DNA from: Cadophora sp. MPI-SDFR-AT-0126
Lineage: Eukaryota; Ascomycota; Leotiomycetes; Helotiales; Ploettnerulaceae
Direction: 5' to 3'
Length of the DNA stretch: 64,000 bases
Assembly: GCA_020747065.1 (NCBI GenBank)
Contig: JAGMVK010000001.1
Coordinates: 3,658,001 to 3,722,000, forward strand
Shown here: piece by piece, positions 27,496 to 36,160 of the stretch
How the letters are laid out: each line of letters starts with the position of its first letter
Numbering within the stretch: position 1 is the stretch's first letter
Notes under the pieces: model-generated
The model's database searches: none
What the model saw: the letters and a program-made list of their open reading frames with translations, nothing else
Told to the model about the DNA's origin: nothing
Made by a program: the position numbers and the translations under genes

Positions 27496-28929
27496 CTAAG
27501 CGAAAGCAATCAAAGCAGCAGCAACACCGACGAGTCCAACGAACGAGGAAGCCTTCATCTGGCCAGCGGCATTGGTGCTAGTAACGGGGGTGGAAGTGGA
27601 GCTCGCATCTGTGGTGGACAATGTGTTAGTTTGTGCTTCCTTGGTGGGAGATGGCATGGTTCCTGGGGATGTGTCTGAACTACCAACTGTGGTAAATTGA
27701 GGGGTAGATGTGATACTTGAGGCGGGGGAGGGAGGGGGCAGGGAATCCGAACCTGTGGAAGTGCCGGTGGTGGCAGAAGCACCAGATCCTGAGCCGGATC
27801 CTGAACCGGATCCAGTTCCGCTTGCGGCAGCGCCTGAGGTGCTGACTTGGACGAGAGTGGTACCGGTTGGAGAGGAGGTTGCTGAACCAGTGACTGATCC
27901 GCTTGCTGAGCCGGTAGCTGAACCACCGGCAGATGAAGAGGTAGCAGTCTTGGATGATGCTGAGGAGGTTGACTTTGGTGCATCACACTTCAGGTCGAAG
28001 AGAGACTTGGAAGAAACGCTTGTGCCGACAACACCGAATTGAGGTTGGCTGTCAACAGCGGTGTTGGCATCGACAAGGGTGTACCAGTAGGTATCGACCT
28101 TTCCGAAGAGAGTGTTGCATCCAACAGCCTCGTAGTAAGATCGTGCGTTGGCAGTGGATGGGTGGCCAGACTCAGCGTCCTTTCCAGCGACAGGCCATCC
28201 GGTCTCAGTGACAATGACTGGCTTTCCCTTGGCAGCAGTGGTGGTGATATCGTAGGCTGCGTTGAAGAGCGTAGGAGCATTCTCGATGGAGTTGTCCTCT
28301 GTGACTTGGAAGTATGGGAAGGTGTTCATTCCGAGGAAATCGGCCTCCTCAATAACGGCAGAGTTGGAACCGTTTCTCCAGACATCCCAGGTATCGACGT
28401 GTCCGACTGCCACTCCGCTCAGAGCGGTACCTGCAAGAGCCTTTCTGACCTGTTGAATATATTTGACAATCTCCGAAGGTTGGGCTCCAACTCCGGTGGG
28501 ATCGTTCTTGAGTCCAGTGGGCGAGATACGGTACAGATCCTCAGATCCAACCGAGATACCGTTGACACGGCTCGTGAACTCCTCTCCGTATTGCTCGATG
28601 GCAGATGTAAGGGCGGCAATCTCGTTGTCGATGATTGTTTGGCCTGCTGAAGCCCACAGGCCGAGGAAGAGCTTGGTGTCTGTCGCGATCGCGGCTGGGA
28701 TGGCAGAGATGGGGGAGTTGTCGGTGCCGGATTGGATGCAGGTGTAGAGTCTGGCACTGGAGAAAGCACCATCTGTGTTGGCAAGACCCTTTGCGGCCTT
28801 GAATTCGGCAGTGAAGGCAGCTTCATTCTTCATCGCTCCCTCTCTGGTGACAGCTCCATAGTTGAATCCTCTGGTGACGGCGGAAGCGACCGAAAGGGAT
28901 GCCGCGAGGGCAATGAGTGAGGCGTGCAT
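27496..28929 (-). CDS. eglC: GPI-anchored GH17 endo-1,3-beta-glucosidase, EglC type
   Basis: One exon, 477 residues. The signal peptide is MHASLIALAASLSVASAVT. A GH17 barrel spans about residues 20-310, with FNYGAVT at its start, the SVGSEDLY acid-base region and the ETGWP motif with the nucleophile Glu. A serine/threonine/glycine tail with GSGSGSG repeats follows, then a C-terminal hydrophobic stretch (SFVGLVGVAAALIAFA) preceded by a small omega-site region, as in GPI-anchored proteins. EglC-type enzymes cut and remodel beta-1,3-glucan in the cell wall and are found across Aspergillus and related moulds. No oddities apart from the long linker. The symbol follows this family. Confidence 0.9.
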   Translation of the reverse strand: MHASLIALAASLSVASAVTRGFNYGAVTREGAMKNEAAFTAEFKAAKGLANTDGAFSSARLYTCIQSGTDNSPISAIPAAIATDTKLFLGLWASAGQTIIDNEIAALTSAIEQYGEEFTSRVNGISVGSEDLYRISPTGLKNDPTGVGAQPSEIVKYIQQVRKALAGTALSGVAVGHVDTWDVWRNGSNSAVIEEADFLGMNTFPYFQVTEDNSIENAPTLFNAAYDITTTAAKGKPVIVTETGWPVAGKDAESGHPSTANARSYYEAVGCNTLFGKVDTYWYTLVDANTAVDSQPQFGVVGTSVSSKSLFDLKCDAPKSTSSASSKTATSSSAGGSATGSASGSVTGSATSSPTGTTLVQVSTSGAAASGTGSGSGSGSGSGASATTGTSTGSDSLPPPSPASSITSTPQFTTVGSSDTSPGTMPSPTKEAQTNTLSTTDASSTSTPVTSTNAAGQMKASSFVGLVGVAAALIAFA

Positions 28930-29932
28930 ATTAGAAGAAAGATTTAGTTTAGCAAATTAGACAAACAAACAAGTAGGGAAGTAGTGAGTGTGGTGTTCTG
29001 CTGAACGAAGATCAGACAGAAACAAAAAGAAGGTTGTCGTTGAAAGAAACGAGAGAACGAGGGTTGGTTGGTTGTCGTGAACAATGTTGTTGAAAGAACC
29101 AAGACCAAATGGGCGTTGGGGTACCGCGTTCCTTTTAAACAAGCACCACCTGGTTACCTATTTTTGGCTGGACTCGCACAAATTTCCGCTGGTCCACAGG
29201 GTCTTGGCAACTCCCAGCACTCTTGGAATTGGAATGATCTCATGGGATACGAGGCACAGTCTTGGTTCCTGCTTTAGCTGTAATTATCGACCAATCCTTT
29301 GATCACTTGGCGCGTAAACGAGACAGAATTGTGGATGATGGTGTTCTTGGCGCGAAAAGATGGTTTGTTTTTAAAGTTCACTAATGTCCCAAATTGGACG
29401 AACCGTGAAAATCGTCCCCTGAGCACGGACCAGTTCAGGGGTAAAGTCAATATTTTGTTTGAATGAATGAAATAGTTAATGTTTATGTTGAGATGGCCAC
29501 CAGTGATTTTGCAAATATAAGATAAAAGAAGATGGTCATGGCTTCAACTTTCTTCCGACTTTTTATTATGCCCGTCAATTCAGGGTTCAACATGCCTCCT
29601 TTCATCCGCATTCCACCAACAGTGTGTTTCACACAACATCCCGGGTAGGGCAGGTAGGGCACCTTTTCGGGGGGCTGATCTCGTCAATGCTGGTGACAGT
29701 AATTTGACTTGTCAGTCAGCCATCCAAGTGTTCGAAGGCCGAAAAAAGTATATGTTATGCTTCGAGGAAACTTACTCGAAAAGATAATAAAGCTAAAGGA
29801 TATGAATTACTGAAGCAATACGGACAATAGGGAGAAAGACCGACTACCAATTGCCGAAACACCACCTTCAAATTCAAATTGCACCAGTTGTTCCCATTAA
29901 CACCAGCTAGAACACTCACCAACACCCAACAT
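28930..29932. other. Intergenic, promoter of eglC and 3' flank
   Basis: These 1003 bases carry the eglC promoter and the end of the tripartite enzyme gene. A small direct repeat, GTAGGGCA twice (29645-29662), is the only pattern I see. No RNA gene or coding frame is supported. Confidence 0.5.
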
Positions 29933-32511
29933 CTACGAAACAGTGATCCTCGCCATATCAACCTCAATCCTCTCCGCGATCTTCTCTTCCTTAACCACCA
30001 TCGCCGCCGCCCGCTTATACGGGATCCCCCTCGCCAGCTCCAACGTACTCATACACATCCTCAAGAACAGCGGTCCCAACTCCACCTTATGCAGCGGAAT
30101 CAAACTAAACAACAAACTCGCCGTAATCCTCAACAGCGTCTTCTTATGAATACTAACCGCATACTTCTCCTCCAAGAAGCGCCAGAACACATCCTGCAGC
30201 CCCATCAGGATCCTCTGGTCGGCCTCCTCGAGAAGCGGTTGGGTTGCGGATGGGAGGGAGGATAGGTCCATGAAGAGGATGTGGTCGTAGCCCATGAGCG
30301 ATTGTAGGATCTTCGCGAGGTCGTAGTGGATGTCGCCTTCCATGGTGAGCGTGTCTTCTAGCTGGCAGCGCACGTCGATGAAGGATACGCTCTTGTCGTC
30401 CTGGCTCAGGATGGCGTTGCTGAAGACCGGGTCGCCGTGGATGATGGGCACGTGCACGCCTTTGTCCTCCGCCTCGTACGTATCGAGGAACTCGCTGAGG
30501 CGCGAGAAGCACTCTGCGGAGTTGGGCCCGAGAGCGGCGTAGCGTGCGGTGTTGTTGTAGTAGCGAGAGCGCAGCTTCATGCCGTAGTTGGCGTAGATGT
30601 TGACGCCGCCGGAGCGCTCGATGCTGTGTTGGGAGAACTTGTTGGCGACGGCTGGGGAGATGGGAAGGCGGGGGGAGAGCGTGCTGCTTGTCGTGTGGAT
30701 GCTGTGGAGGGCTGTCAAGAGAGTCAAGAGTCGGCCTTCCGTGATAGAGCGACCGACGAGGAGGTGGCTGAAGGTGAGGCCCTGACGGTATTCCATCTCA
30801 ATGGTATAATTTCCTGTCTCTGGGAGGTAATCCACGGCGAATCCTGTAGGGAAGACTGGTAGCAGGTCGGTGGGCATGTGAGCATAAAAGTACAACTCGC
30901 CGAGGATGGCGTCTGATTTGGAGGATTTGATCACTTTGTCCCCTACAATTTGGATCGTGTTAAAGTCTCGAGCTGCGACCATTGCCTTGGTGGTTTGATT
31001 CGGGCGAGGAGTCAGTGGTCTTGACGCGGTTCCTTCAGGTTCCAAGAGAGAAGATGGGTCGGCTTCATCAAGCAGCCAGCCGATTTCTTTCATCGTGTCG
31101 AGATTTGCATTGACAGCAAGATCGTCCACATAGACATCTGCCCAAGGTTTGCCGAAATGAATGTCTAAAGGTCAGTACAGTTCGGTATGTGTGTGTGGGA
31201 GTATACTTACCATGGAACGGAATCTCATATCTTGCTAGTTGTTGGAAAGTGACGACCCCAACATCCCTTAGAATCGCACCCACATTCCCATTGTGAGTCC
31301 TCATCCTTCGAGCAGTTTGCTAACACCATATCAGTCAACCTTCCCCAAACCACACCGAGCATCAACATACAATGATAATATAGTGACCAGCCTTGTGCAA
31401 CTGCTGCACCAGCCTGATATTCTTCCAAATCGGCGGACACGTCGAGTAATCGCCCGCCACAGCCGGCACACCCACAAGCGTCATATCCAGATCAAAGCAG
31501 AACCTCCTCTTCTTGACCTGATTCGGCCTCTTCCCATCCTTCATCTGCATCAGCAACTCCTCCAACTGTTCCGGTGTGCCGACACAGCTGAAGTCCTTCT
31601 TCGAAAGCGGCAGTCCCAGGAAGGGCAGCTGCGCATCGTGGATCATAGTCCCGATCATTTGCGACGTGTAGTACTCCCCTATGTCGGAGCCCTTGGGACG
31701 CAGAGCATGGGAGTCAATGTTCTTCGCGGCCCAGGTGTGCATTAGTGATGCGGTGGCGAAGACATACGCGCCGGTGTTGGCTTTGTTGCTGATGGCTTTC
31801 TTCTCGCGGATGTCGGTTATGAGGGGGATGGCGTTGCCGTCGGTGCTTTCTTCGGTTTTGATGTAGGAGTAGATTGGATTGATGCCATCGTCTGGGAAGT
31901 AGAAAACTGCGCCGTATTGGACGGGCATGTTTCGCACGTCTTGCAGGATGTCGGCCCAGTAGATGGTATCGCCTAGATCAGTTAGTGATAGTTTGCTTTC
32001 GATGCTGTATTAAGTGACCTTACAGTCAAGTGATACTGTTCGTCTTCCCATGTGCTCGGCACCCATGCTCTGGGCCGTCATATACAGCTTCAGGATAAGT
32101 CAGCTTTCAATTCTCCAGATTACAAAACCAGAAATAGAACATTGGAAGAGAACTCACCGTCTCCGAAGCCCCCTTCGTCTGATGCTTCAACCTCAATAGG
32201 CGAAAGTCCACCTTCGGAAACGTCTTCATAACCAACTGTCCAATGCGGAACTCGTCATCAACCTCCATATTGACCGCCATCCATAACGTATCCTCTGGTC
32301 TCAGAGATAAGTTATCAATGATCCTCAGAATCATAGGCCGGCCAATGATGTTGATCAAAGGTTTGGGATATCGATAGCCGACTTTAGAGAAACGGCTTCC
32401 GATCCCGCCGATTGGGATGATGATGTTGAGTGCCTGGCTACTACTACTGCTGCTACTTTTGCTACATTTCGACGCTTCAACCGGTACATCGATGTTGGTG
32501 AGTCCTGGCAT
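29933..32511 (-). CDS. Three-domain sugar-activation enzyme: nucleotidyltransferase - HAD phosphatase - APH-like kinase
   Basis: Five exons (32511-32158, 32087-32024, 31972-31371, 31319-31211, 31164-29933) encode about 786 residues. Residues about 28-270 form an NTP-transferase domain with the motif IIIPIGGIGSRF and YPKPLINI, as in sugar-1-phosphate nucleotidyltransferases. Residues about 297-395 form a HAD domain: FDLDMTL (DxDxT type) near 299, QTARRMRTH, and HFGKPWADVYVDDLA. Residues about 420-780 are an aminoglycoside-phosphotransferase/choline-kinase-like domain with HGDPVFSNA near 617 and FIDVR near 636. No signal peptide is seen, so it is probably cytosolic. By analogy with bacterial capsule-modification clusters it could phosphorylate, dephosphorylate and nucleotide-activate a small sugar or polyol. 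The substrate is unknown. An upstream in-frame ATG (32658) would lengthen it by 49 residues. It diverges from the transporter fusion at 33109. Confidence 0.85.
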
Positions 32512-33108
32512 ATTTGCTGTTGTGGAGACCGATGTTTGATGTTGATCGTGGGGGAGGGTGGAAATGGAATTTGCCTTCAAGACGGAGCAAGGTTGCATCA
32601 GGAGTGGGCAGGAGCTTGGTGATATGCACATCGATAGCTCTTCGCTCCTAGTGATCATGGTCTTTTCTGTGTTGTGTTCTCAATCCAATCGTGGCGAAAT
32701 TCTTCCTGCAAGTATAAGACACGATCGCTCATATTCGACGCGTCAACTTCACCATCAGCCTCCGCCCTCGACGCGATCTAATTTGCACACACTGTATCAG
32801 AATTGCTTTTGATTGGGAAATCCCAATCCGAAAGAGAAGAATTTAGCTTTACAGCTGATGCAAGGTACAGAATGTTTGGTGCGCGCGGGTGAGACATTTG
32901 TGTTTTCGCGACAGCAAGGGATGCGAACCTGAATCAACCCGCGCAGGAGGAACTTCAGATCAGCAATCTGTCTTCTGGGTAGCAATGCCCACCCAAAAGT
33001 TCATTTTGGAAGGGGACCGACCGACATCTCCATCTACTCCACCCAACATCCTCCAAAACAGCTCTCCGCTCAATTTCGAGATAGACGATTCATGACGGCA
33101 AATTCAAG
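32512..33108. promoter_or_regulatory. Shared divergent promoter of the sugar-activation gene and transporter fusion
   Basis: About 597 bp separate the two divergent starts. It contains no convincing coding frame. The close head-to-head arrangement, with no other gene between, suggests coordinated expression. Short sequences at 32876-32985 resemble tRNA B boxes but fold badly (see rejected items). Confidence 0.55.
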
Positions 33109-36100
33109 ATGCAGTTCCTCCATACTCTTTGGTCACTCCGCTCATACAATGCAGCATACCTCTCAGCTCTCAGCCTGGTCGTCATCCAAGTCGGCATAGG
33201 ATGTATAATGCGAGCGTCCCAAACGAGTGGAAAATACACCTTCTCGACATCCGGCTCCGTGACCATTTCCGAGTTCTTCAAATTCCTGATCTCGTCTGCG
33301 TTGATGGTCCGTTCGTCGTTGAGAGCTAGACGAGATCCGGCTGGGACGCACGAGCTCGTTCCGATTGAGGCCGGGGATGTGAGGGAGAACGAGAGAAGCA
33401 ATGATGGTGCTGAGATGGAAAACGAGAAATTGATTTACGGGGGTGGGAAACCCCATGGGAGAGGAAGTCTGGTGGGGGATTATGTAAGGAGTTTGGGGAT
33501 GGTGAGTGTGGAGAATAGGTATGGGTTTGCGAAGTTGGCGTTGTTATATGCACTGATCAACAATACGGTAAGATTTCAACAGTGCACCAGGGAGCGCGAA
33601 GAACACTTACTAATGTCCGAACCACAAACAGATCTTCGTGGCATATAAATTAGCGGATCCAGGTACCATCGCGCTCGTCCGTTCGGGAGTTATCTTCATC
33701 ACAGCACTCATCATGGTCCTCGCTCTTGGTGCGGATATCTCAAAGGTCCAGTGGACGGCCATTATCATTCAGGCATGCCCTCCATTCCCCTTCCTTTTCC
33801 TCGCAAATTTGACGTTGGCCATCCTAACACTCTGTAGCTCTGCGGTCTCGTGACAACTCAATACACTCCAGAAACTGGTACATCCTATCCACTATCCACC
33901 TACATGGTCCTGCTCTTTCAAGTGTTCGTCAGCTCGGTAGCAGGAGTATACAACCAATCTCTTTTGAAAAGCGATCAAGCGTCTCTTCACGCGCAGAATG
34001 CCGTTTTATATGGATGTGGTGTTGTCATCAATGGCATGGTTCATCTGACGCTGAGCTATGTGACGGAAGATGAGCCAGGCCTCTTTGATGGCTATACGAG
34101 CTCGGCGGCGTATTTGGTGATTATGAGTAATGTATTCATCGGATTGGCGATCACAGCGGTGTATAAGTGTAAGTCTCGCTCTTCCATAACTTGAGAGTAT
34201 CCAATCCATCTCATTCTCGCTCACGAGGTGTGGCATTACTCCCTGCAAATGAGCTGATCAGACTTGACCAGATGCCAATGCTGTCATCAAATGTCTCGCC
34301 ACTGCATTCGCAACCGGCATTCTTCTGTACATCTCGCCCATCTTGTTCGGGACCACAATGGCACCGCTCATAATCCCTGGCGGATTGATCGTGTTCATCA
34401 CTTCGTGGCTGTATATGGAATCACCTGCTCCAAAGCGACCCACCTCCTTTGCAGACGAGGTACCACGTAGTCGCCCATTCGACTTCATCCCCTCAGGACC
34501 GGTATGTATTTTTCTTCCAGCCGACCCTCTGGTCGAACCTGAAACTAATACATCCCATCTTCAGAAATGGCGTAACCCTATCCTCGCTCTCTCAACCTTC
34601 TTCTCAATAGTCATAATCGTCTTCTGCGAAACCATGTCCATTCCCGACCTCTCATCTTCGCCCGATACCTCACCCACTCCCATCCTAACTTCCCCCTTCA
34701 ACAACACGCTCGCCTTCATCAGATGGAACGGACACCGACCCGAACGCGTGCCACTAATGGAGAAATACGCGCCTTTCTTCCACACTCTGCACTTCAGCAT
34801 GCCGGGCTTCATTGATCAGCCGCTGAAAACAGAGTACCAGAATCTGACGCATGATAATTGGGGTGATGGATTGGTGACATATGTTCAGATTGCGAGGACT
34901 ATGGAGTGGATTTTGAAGATGCCGAAGAATGAGAGTGAGAGGGAGATTGAGGGTTTGTTGCAGTTCCATTTGTGAGTTTCTTCCTTCTTTCGTTTGTCTA
35001 CTTTTCCTAGGCCTGTTGTTTTGAATTGCTCTCGCTTGGCCCCGTAGCATTCGCGAGATGGTGAAGGGACTAGTCGGAGAGTTGGTGTCTGCAATGACAC
35101 ATTTGATTTGCTGATACCGTTTGAATACAGTGACGCATGGGTCGATCCCATGCATTTTGCCGAAGAAGACTTTAAGAAGATGTGGATAGCCGTCAGCCGG
35201 CACAATGACGGCGCAGGGGGTGGCCCAACATTCCTCTGCATGACAAAACGCACTCGATTCGCAAATTGGGTCGGCATGGATGTCAACCATAACTGGCAAT
35301 ACCCGCTCCTCACCGCGCTCGCCTCCCTCTCCGCTGCCAATACCGACTATGTCTTCAACCCTGACGAATGGTGCACGGGTTGGTCCGACATCTACTATAT
35401 CCCGCGCCACCTCTGGGTCGACTACATCTACCTGGCCTACACATTCGCCGCGCACTCAGTCTTCCACGAAATGGCCGTTCCGACTATCTTGCATATCCTA
35501 GATCAGACGAGGAGAACGAACGAGCTGTCGAGTATCATAACTTTCATTGGGGACTGTTACGGGGGTTGTTGTGCCCCTGGCGCCGGGATGGAAGACTTGC
35601 TCGCACATAGGTGTGGGCACAAATTGGATTATAGGGGCCGAGAAGTGGTCGAGGCGCATTACGAGAGGTTGGACTATGCGGCGAGTGTGCTCGGTACTGA
35701 AATCGGAAGACCGCAATGGCTGAGTCCAGAAGCTCAAGCACACAGGGTAAATTGGACTGCGTTCGAAAGCAGTTTAAGCCCAGAAGCAAGACGAAAGCTG
35801 GATGAAGCGAGGTTCAATACGAGGCTGGGAAAGACGATGGGGCACAATATGCCGGAGAACTTTCCATTCAATGCGACGGGCATTGAACCGCCGCCTACAA
35901 CTGCAGAGTTGAGGAAGGCGGAGCAGGAGAAGAAAAAGAAAATTGAGGCGCAGAAGTTGGCGGCGGCCGAGAAACAGGCGAACGAGCAGAAAGCCAAGGA
36001 GGAGCAGATGAAGAAGGAAGGTAATAGAAAAGCAGAGGCGCAGAGATTGAAGGATTTGGAGTTGGAAAAGTTGAAGCTCGAGGAGCAGCTGAAGAAAGAA

Positions 36101-36160
36101 AAGGGCGGTGCGAAAACAAAAGGAAAGGAAGTGGCCGCGGCAGTGGAAAATGAGACTTGA
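33109..36160 (+). CDS. Nucleotide-sugar transporter fused to a lumenal domain (probable glycosyltransferase-like)
   Basis: Six exons (33109-33567, 33632-33772, 33838-34168, 34272-34501, 34565-34971, 35131-36160) give about 865 residues. Residues 1-385 are an SLC35-type (UDP-galactose/CMP-sialic-acid-like) transporter, with about ten spans and the KYANAVIKCLATAFATG block near the end. A further span (about 391-412, LALSTFFSIVIIVFC) would place the rest in the Golgi lumen. That rest (about 420-770) contains FHFDAWVDPMHF near 523 and GWSDIYYIPRHLW near 607, with cysteines and N-glycosylation sequons. It resembles a metal-dependent glycosyltransferase-like fold, but no named family is certain. 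The end is a lysine/glutamate coiled coil (about 781-860). Intron 2 (33773-33837) uses a GC donor. All exons join in one frame, so this is a true fusion unless a stop was missed. Confidence 0.82.

Follow-up and report, generated by a model that had tools for sequence, protein, structure and literature searches.

A divergent fungal gene pair: a fused counterpart of the putative sugar-activation genes of Escherichia coli K4 beside a nucleotide-sugar transporter joined to a predicted lumenal domain

What would a fungus do with a nucleotidyltransferase, a phosphatase and a kinase joined in one polypeptide and encoded head-to-head with a nucleotide-sugar transporter that itself carries a further domain? 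This question is raised by two genes, here called A and B, in a 64,000-nucleotide stretch of Cadophora sp. MPI-SDFR-AT-0126 (hereafter the window; contig JAGMVK010000001.1, positions 3,658,001 to 3,722,000), which is part of a 53.96 Mb assembly. A first-pass annotation of the window had taken the pair for a complete route that makes, imports and transfers an unusual activated sugar. Both genes are indeed present in divergent orientation, both splice cleanly, and their starts lie 597 bp apart, on a region that could possibly act as a bidirectional promoter. The earlier reading of the locus as a whole is partly supported by our analysis. We consider it probable that an activated sugar is made by gene A and is imported and transferred by gene B, while the identity of the sugar is put forward more tentatively: fructose is a serious candidate in this fungus, held with slightly less than even confidence.

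Gene A, with its exon joins re-derived from the splice sites, forms one open frame of 786 amino acids followed by a stop. The deposited protein P0001 from the same strain is identical to it (100%) over the whole length and begins at the same methionine; a further in-frame ATG lies upstream at position 32658. The gene was found at a single locus in its own genome by a protein search with P0001, in which counts are lower bounds. Its first domain belongs to the Pfam family NTP_transferase (PF00483, 26.5 bits against a cut-off of 21.2). The central HAD part scores 56.8 bits with the NCBIfam model EcbF-BcbF (TIGR01689), short of the curated cut-off of 162, and is best read as a relative of that family, not a member under the curated rule. 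The C-terminal part gives 13 bits with APH (PF01636, cut-off 23.2), and two bacterial counterparts of this kinase likewise remain under that cut-off, at 21.0 and 17 bits. Sequence matches in PDB are 1xpj for the HAD part (E 2e-12) and 4evw for the nucleotidyltransferase. The domain make-up first proposed for A and B was thus borne out by Pfam, NCBIfam and PDB matches, with the HAD and APH parts of A below the family cut-offs.

The residues that we take to be the signatures of the three activities are well conserved in an 18-row alignment of chosen relatives from which P0081 and P0075 were left out. The HAD motifs (DxDxT, Thr, Lys and DD) and the kinase motif (HGD...N with a later Asp) are invariant, and in the nucleotidyltransferase GG, R and KP are kept and the Asp of DC(D) nearly always so. 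As far as sequence can tell, none of the three enzyme domains looks dead in the window's own protein.

An indication of what gene A may do comes from the K4 capsule locus of Escherichia coli, in which three adjacent genes match its domains one for one. Alignment with hhalign gave a probability of 98.6 (E 8e-16) for the K4 nucleotidyltransferase, 98.4 (E 4e-15) for the K4 HAD gene and 98.1 (E 6.6e-14) for KfoE, the last mainly over the second half of KfoE. Gene A therefore holds homologs of all three genes of a K4-type sugar-activation set and is its fused counterpart. The K4 capsule consists of chondroitin that bears fructofuranose branches, and deletion of kfoE, which is called a fructosyltransferase gene, yields a non-fructosylated polymer, according to PMC7925653 and PMC7429809; kfoB, kfoD and kfoG are called unknown in function in PMC3673904. 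The kfoE deletion primers are printed in PMC7429809, and the first 50 bases of each match 50/50 in the K4-type locus L098. One site lies in the last codons at the 3' end of the HAD gene and the other where the nucleotidyltransferase gene begins. The primers thus bracket exactly the APH-like gene, and this is what was deleted as kfoE. The gene lies at L098:10190-11845 and, uninterrupted, at L099:10240-11808. By its sequence KfoE is APH-kinase-like, and it may help to make the fructose donor instead of transferring fructose.

The trifunctional enzyme that we propose for gene A would be cytosolic and would need no mutase to lead from a central sugar phosphate to a nucleotide sugar. First the APH-like domain, as a kinase, would phosphorylate the anomeric hydroxyl of the sugar phosphate; the HAD domain would then cleave off the distal phosphate present from the start; finally, the anomeric phosphate would be coupled with a nucleoside triphosphate by the nucleotidyltransferase domain to give the nucleotide sugar. 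The phosphorylation, dephosphorylation and nucleoside diphosphate (NDP) activation envisaged in the first-pass annotation thus find support as a predicted sequence of reactions. Its substrate had been given as a small sugar or polyol, and we narrow this toward fructose because the domains of A correspond to the K4 set including kfoE. The pathway would then start at fructose 6-phosphate and end at NDP-fructofuranose, with fructose 2,6-bisphosphate and fructose 2-phosphate in between. In one RB69-type phage an arabinose 5-phosphate isomerase gene stands upstream of related APH and HAD genes, an arrangement that suits an anomeric kinase acting on a phosphorylated substrate. It is a speculation that the fusion would prevent the release of the intermediate fructose 2,6-bisphosphate, a master regulator of glycolysis. 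The SLC35A domain of gene B would bring the NDP-fructose donor into the Golgi, and the tethered lumenal domain would place the sugar on secreted or cell-wall glycans. A trifunctional A with an importing and transferring B and with fructose as the sugar is the best explanation that we can offer for the pair, and we hold it as a working proposal that falls a little short of being probable.

Gene B spliced gives one uninterrupted frame, the joins of which agree by eye with the homolog P0121, and includes a GC-AG intron at positions 33773-33837. A protein search with P0121, again with counts as lower bounds, places it at a unique locus in its own genome. Residues 144-358 match PF04142 with 91.5 bits against a cut-off of 27 (profile positions 90-314 of 315), which makes the protein a member of this family, and the closest PDB structures are the CMP-sialic acid transporters 6oh4, 6i1r and 6oh2 (E 2e-16 to 5e-16). 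SLC35 proteins have ten helices with both the N- and the C-terminus in the cytosol. The C-terminal domain of B would lie in the lumen because an extra hydrophobic segment follows a transporter that ends in the cytosol; a matching segment is present in P0121, P0131, P0135 and P0148, and in P0145 it is below threshold. In Adineta steineri, Adineta vaga and Chlorociboria, proteins related to the domain carry just one hydrophobic segment, at the N-terminus. This is the usual layout of Golgi glycosyltransferases and gives independent support for a lumenal placement, as had been suggested at the outset.

The lumenal domain was searched with residues 400-740 of gene B, which have 28 relatives of 561-914 amino acids among 2933 candidates, all 28 with PF04142, and 56 additional shorter matches, several of which are fragments. 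To judge from these matches the domain is a conserved family of fungi and bdelloid rotifers. It had no NCBIfam or PDB sequence match at E <= 10, and Pfam gave a chance-level match in one of ten sequences only (E 0.32). A Pfam scan of 30 lumenal relatives returned 12 families at E <= 10, none of them a glycosyltransferase, and the best of these was PF04142 itself (E 0.0035), in 2/30 sequences that both retain a remnant of the transporter. Four PHROGs families each matched one of ten sequences (best E 0.0064), none with a stated function. Hence no sequence match in Pfam, NCBIfam, PDB or PHROGs places the domain in a known glycosyltransferase family, and among viral contigs none of 45 pattern matches was a relative of it.

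If the two genes work together they might be expected to travel together, and this was one of the checks set beforehand as able to refute the pairing. Of 8000 scored candidates, 829 are relatives of gene A at E <= 1e-3, and those named here are taken from the best 120 of the 829. They include Helotiales, Colletotrichum, Fusarium, Metarhizium, red yeasts, chytrids, aphelids, a marine protist transcript and a bdelloid rotifer. The contigs of 118 of these 120 (the other two gave no length) were compared with those of all 84 relatives of B or its lumenal domain, two contigs being taken as the same when their total length in bp was equal, and at least 13 A rows share a contig with a B row. One of the 13 shared contigs (P0003/P0176) comes from a metagenome and has nearly the same sequence as the window. 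Consecutive gene numbers for A and B are found in Oculimacula (13043/13044), a Mollisiaceae isolate (EG329_004041/004042) and Anthostomella (095890/095880), and two A+B contigs stand under the single strain name Xylogone sp. PMI_703. The named species with shared contigs include Leotiomycetes and Xylariales. Bdelloid rotifers have both families too, A being listed for Rotaria and the lumenal domain for Adineta, a different genus. With this many relatives, neither gene is a chance arrangement. The expected co-occurrence was recovered in so far as the shared contigs go, and it did not extend to a constant pair since A is the commoner gene, so that A and B are a loose pair, not a strict one.

Several findings weigh against our proposal, some of them against fructose and some against the partnership. 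The three-gene set is also present in the E. coli O78 locus, and the O78 O-antigen is presumably made of mannose and N-acetylglucosamine only, without fructose; that fructose was lost in mild acid would be a guess. Relatives in RB69-type phages are proposed to serve arabinose (PMC6024577), and because of these two cases the donor may differ among branches of the A family. KfoE, published as a fructosyltransferase, could be one, given an N-terminal half that resembles a degenerate nucleotidyltransferase. The genetics of K4, which concerns kfoE only, shows that this gene is needed for fructosylation and not which reaction it carries out, and the literature passages on the set, each a part of its source, hold no assay of its enzymes. 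To our knowledge fructose has not been reported in fungal glycoproteins, a point on which no search was made. Among 15 printed relatives of A, the HAD motifs are altered in P0081 (Rhodotorula), and the start of the HAD domain is missing from P0075. For B, the lumenal family (66 sequences) aligned with profiles of the KfoD-like (20) and WavE (5) proteins encoded beside the bacterial set at an hhalign probability of only 0.1, in a comparison that had no working positive control, since the KfoD-like and WavE profiles were likewise unmatched with each other (probability 1.0, E 0.05). Gene A is far more widespread than gene B. Sphaceloma murrayae and Chlorociboria aeruginascens have A and B on separate contigs; Hyaloscypha bicolor and H. 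finlandica have B (P0128 and P0129) and are not among the 120 listed relatives of A; and Fusarium, Metarhizium and Ophiocordyceps are listed with A and have no B relative under those names among the matches listed; some gene models may be faulty. Gene A must therefore serve other transferases in many fungi.

The same three steps could act on an aldose, with arabinose 5-phosphate passing through arabinose 1,5-bisphosphate and arabinose 1-phosphate to NDP-arabinose (D-arabinose), and it is the phage relatives that lend substance to this idea. In phage phiR1-RT an annotated arabinose 5-phosphate isomerase gene is followed by an RB69ORF052c-like gene, the second half of which is matched by the APH model of A, and then by a HAD gene. 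RB69 DNA bears arabinosyl groups, and ORF53_52c is discussed as taking part in the synthesis of the donor in PMC6024577. However, the phage nucleotidyltransferase part is not matched by the model from A, whereas the K4 counterpart is matched with 73 bits, and the phage row, with its very long branch (4.4), falls outside the group to which A belongs. No isomerase gene was noted by eye beside A, although no search for one was made. We regard arabinose as an unlikely sugar for gene A.

A and B might also be neighbours and not partners, with B bringing in an ordinary UDP-sugar for an enzyme or binding domain of its own in the lumen and A serving an unrelated process. Many relatives of B are named UDP-galactose transporter (these being source names only), the lumenal domain is without an assigned fold, and the greater abundance of A, the Hyaloscypha species with B and not A among those listed, and the two species with the genes on different contigs all fit such an arrangement. 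The shared contigs, the two linked sets of Xylogone and the occurrence of both families in bdelloid rotifers nevertheless point to a shared role, and we find it improbable that the pair is a mere neighbourhood.

A third possibility is that A makes a CDP-polyol or a phosphocholine-like donor from which a phospho-group is passed on in the manner of LicA/LicC/LicD or of CDP-ribitol. A SAR11 relative of A shares its locus (L005) with a LicD-family gene (29.9 bits, cut-off 22.6), the transporter of B is nearest in PDB to CMP-sialic acid transporters, and SLC35A1 carries CDP-ribitol. A polyol phosphate could, however, go straight to coupling with no phosphatase involved, the Pfam scans gave no LicD match in B or in its relatives, and the K4 genes are tied to a sugar, fructose, in glycosidic linkage; we regard a donor of this kind as quite unlikely. 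Heptose was dropped as the sugar of A, as its pathway uses a different kinase family.

In bacteria the parts of gene A are found as separate genes among the best matches, with a HAD gene of ~130 codons, an APH gene of ~530 and a nucleotidyltransferase gene of ~245 side by side, and the APH part of A corresponds to the second half of the ~530-codon gene. A pattern scan with one genome per species confirmed the fusion on only three bacterial contigs. One Pelagibacteraceae contig (L005:91-6751) carries a fused relative of A whose neighbours are LicD-family, pyruvate-kinase-like and ATP-sulfurylase-like. Among 398 genomes of one bacterial phylum, 114 have any match to A, many of them a weak nucleotidyltransferase match only. 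Most of ten fetched bacterial loci lie amid polysaccharide genes, judged by eye, and two (L035 and L038) lie beside cofactor-synthesis genes. Models derived from A find all three parts in 15/15 bacterial loci (these ten and five from E. coli), which were chosen because they had matches. The E. coli loci comprise the O92-type and O78 O-antigen loci, both of which contain a gene annotated as WavE, K loci from an ST69 strain and from one other strain, and a locus of K4 layout in which the set accompanies an epimerase, a 686-codon glycosyltransferase and a dehydrogenase, 686 codons being the length of KfoC. The ST69 K locus may be K52, a capsule that presumably contains fructose. Fructose is likewise presumed in the core of Vibrio cholerae; no paper among those listed in the literature search showed it. 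K52 is the commonest K locus in CC69 (39.5%; PMC13171598). Seven plasmid records hold KfoE-like genes. The APH-like gene is broken up in the strain that carries the O92-type locus (L094:12001-14615).

A KfoD-like glycosyltransferase, modeled from four of the bacterial loci, was considered as a marker for fructose and was not used as proof, as the family is too broad. It is present in 6/15 bacterial loci (L034, L036, L037, L041, L096 and L099) and in 16/50 viral loci that carry a relative of A, and among the best 80 of at least 541 viral KfoD-like loci HAD and APH are found together in 13 and the nucleotidyltransferase model matches 58. The KfoD-like domain is in frame with a nucleotidyltransferase at L041:10522-12933 and with an annotated acyltransferase in the ST69 K locus at L096:8522-11011.

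Fused relatives are also encoded by viruses. The 50 viral loci (L044-L093) include 41 that match A over nearly the whole fused length, with full-length identity up to 41%. A tree was built from the HAD and APH parts joined end to end and has 82 rows. Of these, 22 are taken to be eukaryotic (P0109, P0112 and P0118 by assumption), and they form one group with support of 100/100. The tree retains 41/50 viral rows and 14/15 rows of the bacterial set (L070, L073 and L077 were dropped by hand and others by a filter on length and presence), and the viral rows L076 and L078 match the HAD and kinase parts only. The eukaryotic group is drawn among viral and marine bacterial fusions, its nearest viral rows being weakly supported (87/67). 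One reading is a single acquisition of the fused gene by eukaryotes, with phages or marine bacteria as the source; the midpoint root is no proof of this. A transfer of gene A from bacteria into this fungus only was dropped as an explanation in view of the single group of 22 eukaryotic rows.

Each part of the two genes is of a known kind, and it is the combination, a K4-type trifunctional enzyme in a eukaryote linked to an unannotated fusion of transporter and lumenal domain, that is likely to be undescribed. It was not met in the open-licence literature, in searches aimed at the bacterial set and nucleotide-fructose and not at the fungal fusion. 'Capsule biosynthesis phosphatase' gave no match there, no title among the EcbF/BcbF matches listed dealt with these genes, and none of the NDP-fructose matches listed was relevant by title and abstract start. 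Because the search was limited to open-licence papers and to these other targets, novelty is likely and not proven.

If the proposal is correct, eukaryotic glycobiology would gain a new sugar donor and a new family of Golgi transferases, and fungal proteins now named 'capsule biosynthesis phosphatase' or 'mannose-1-phosphate guanyltransferase' would gain a function. KfoE, which is deleted in chondroitin production strains, would help to make a fructose donor and would not transfer fructose. Ketofuranosides are very acid-labile, and glycans that contain them could therefore have escaped routine sugar analysis. It is conceivable, and rather doubtful, that many eukaryotes (fungi, chytrids, aphelids, bdelloid rotifers and some algae or protists) make NDP-fructose with one trifunctional protein of this kind, and that in some fungi and rotifers the sugar is placed on glycans by a family of Golgi transferases that no library names. 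The features of the locus are given in Table 1. A gene that by eye only resembles a GH17 beta-1,3-glucanase, a wall enzyme, adjoins gene A at positions 27496-28956.

Table 1. Features of the gene A/gene B locus (window coordinates; domain functions are predicted)
Feature	Position	Strand	Remarks
Gene A, 786 amino acids, five exons	29933..32511	-	fusion of nucleotidyltransferase, EcbF-like HAD phosphatase and APH-like kinase
Gene A exons	32511-32158, 32087-32024, 31972-31371, 31319-31211, 31164-29933	-	splice-site joins
Gene A nucleotidyltransferase domain, residues ~29-265	31596..32427	-	split by introns; limits set by hand; PF00483
Gene A EcbF/BcbF-like HAD phosphatase domain, residues ~295-397	31103..31508	-	split by introns; limits set by hand
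Gene A APH-like kinase domain, residues ~437-755	30029..30985	-	limits set by hand
A/B divergent intergenic region, 597 bp	32512..33108	.	head-to-head start codons
Gene B, 865 amino acids, six exons	33109..36160	+	nucleotide-sugar transporter fused to lumenal domain
Gene B exons	33109-33567, 33632-33772, 33838-34168, 34272-34501, 34565-34971, 35131-36160	+	splice-site joins
Gene B SLC35A-type transporter domain, residues 1-365	33109..34435	+	PF04142; PDB matches
Gene B extra hydrophobic segment, residues 393-411	34580..34636	+	mean hydropathy 2.22
Gene B lumenal domain, residues ~429-715 (~290 amino acids)	34688..35707	+	family in fungi and bdelloid rotifers

Compared with known systems, the predicted chemistry of gene A has the same outline as the ADP/GDP-heptose pathway, which employs an anomeric kinase, the GmhB phosphatase and a nucleotidyltransferase. 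The two would share a bisphosphate, the loss of its distal phosphate and coupling to a nucleotide, and they differ in that the heptose kinase is of the GHMP or PfkB type and that of A is APH-like; inspection by eye of the long open reading frames of the window showed no heptose isomerase, for which no search was made. The transporter domain of B is a clear member of the family of the SLC35A transporters of known structure, to which it adds a transmembrane helix and the lumenal domain. The arabinosylation genes of RB69-type phages resemble A in their HAD and APH-like parts, which adjoin a gene for a sugar phosphate isomerase, and differ in the nucleotidyltransferase part, which the model from A does not match, and in the destination of the sugar, which is phage DNA (PMC6024577). 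In gene content A is related to the E. coli K4 set, whose three genes match the HAD, kinase and nucleotidyltransferase domains of A. Their order is HAD, kfoE, nucleotidyltransferase in K4, whereas in A it is nucleotidyltransferase, HAD, kinase, and what are separate genes in the bacterium form one polypeptide in the fungus. KfoE also has an extra degenerate nucleotidyltransferase-like N-terminal half, the alignment with A beginning at about residue 185, whereas A has a single nucleotidyltransferase domain. Lastly, the bacterial donor would serve in the cytosol while that of the fungus would need import into the Golgi.

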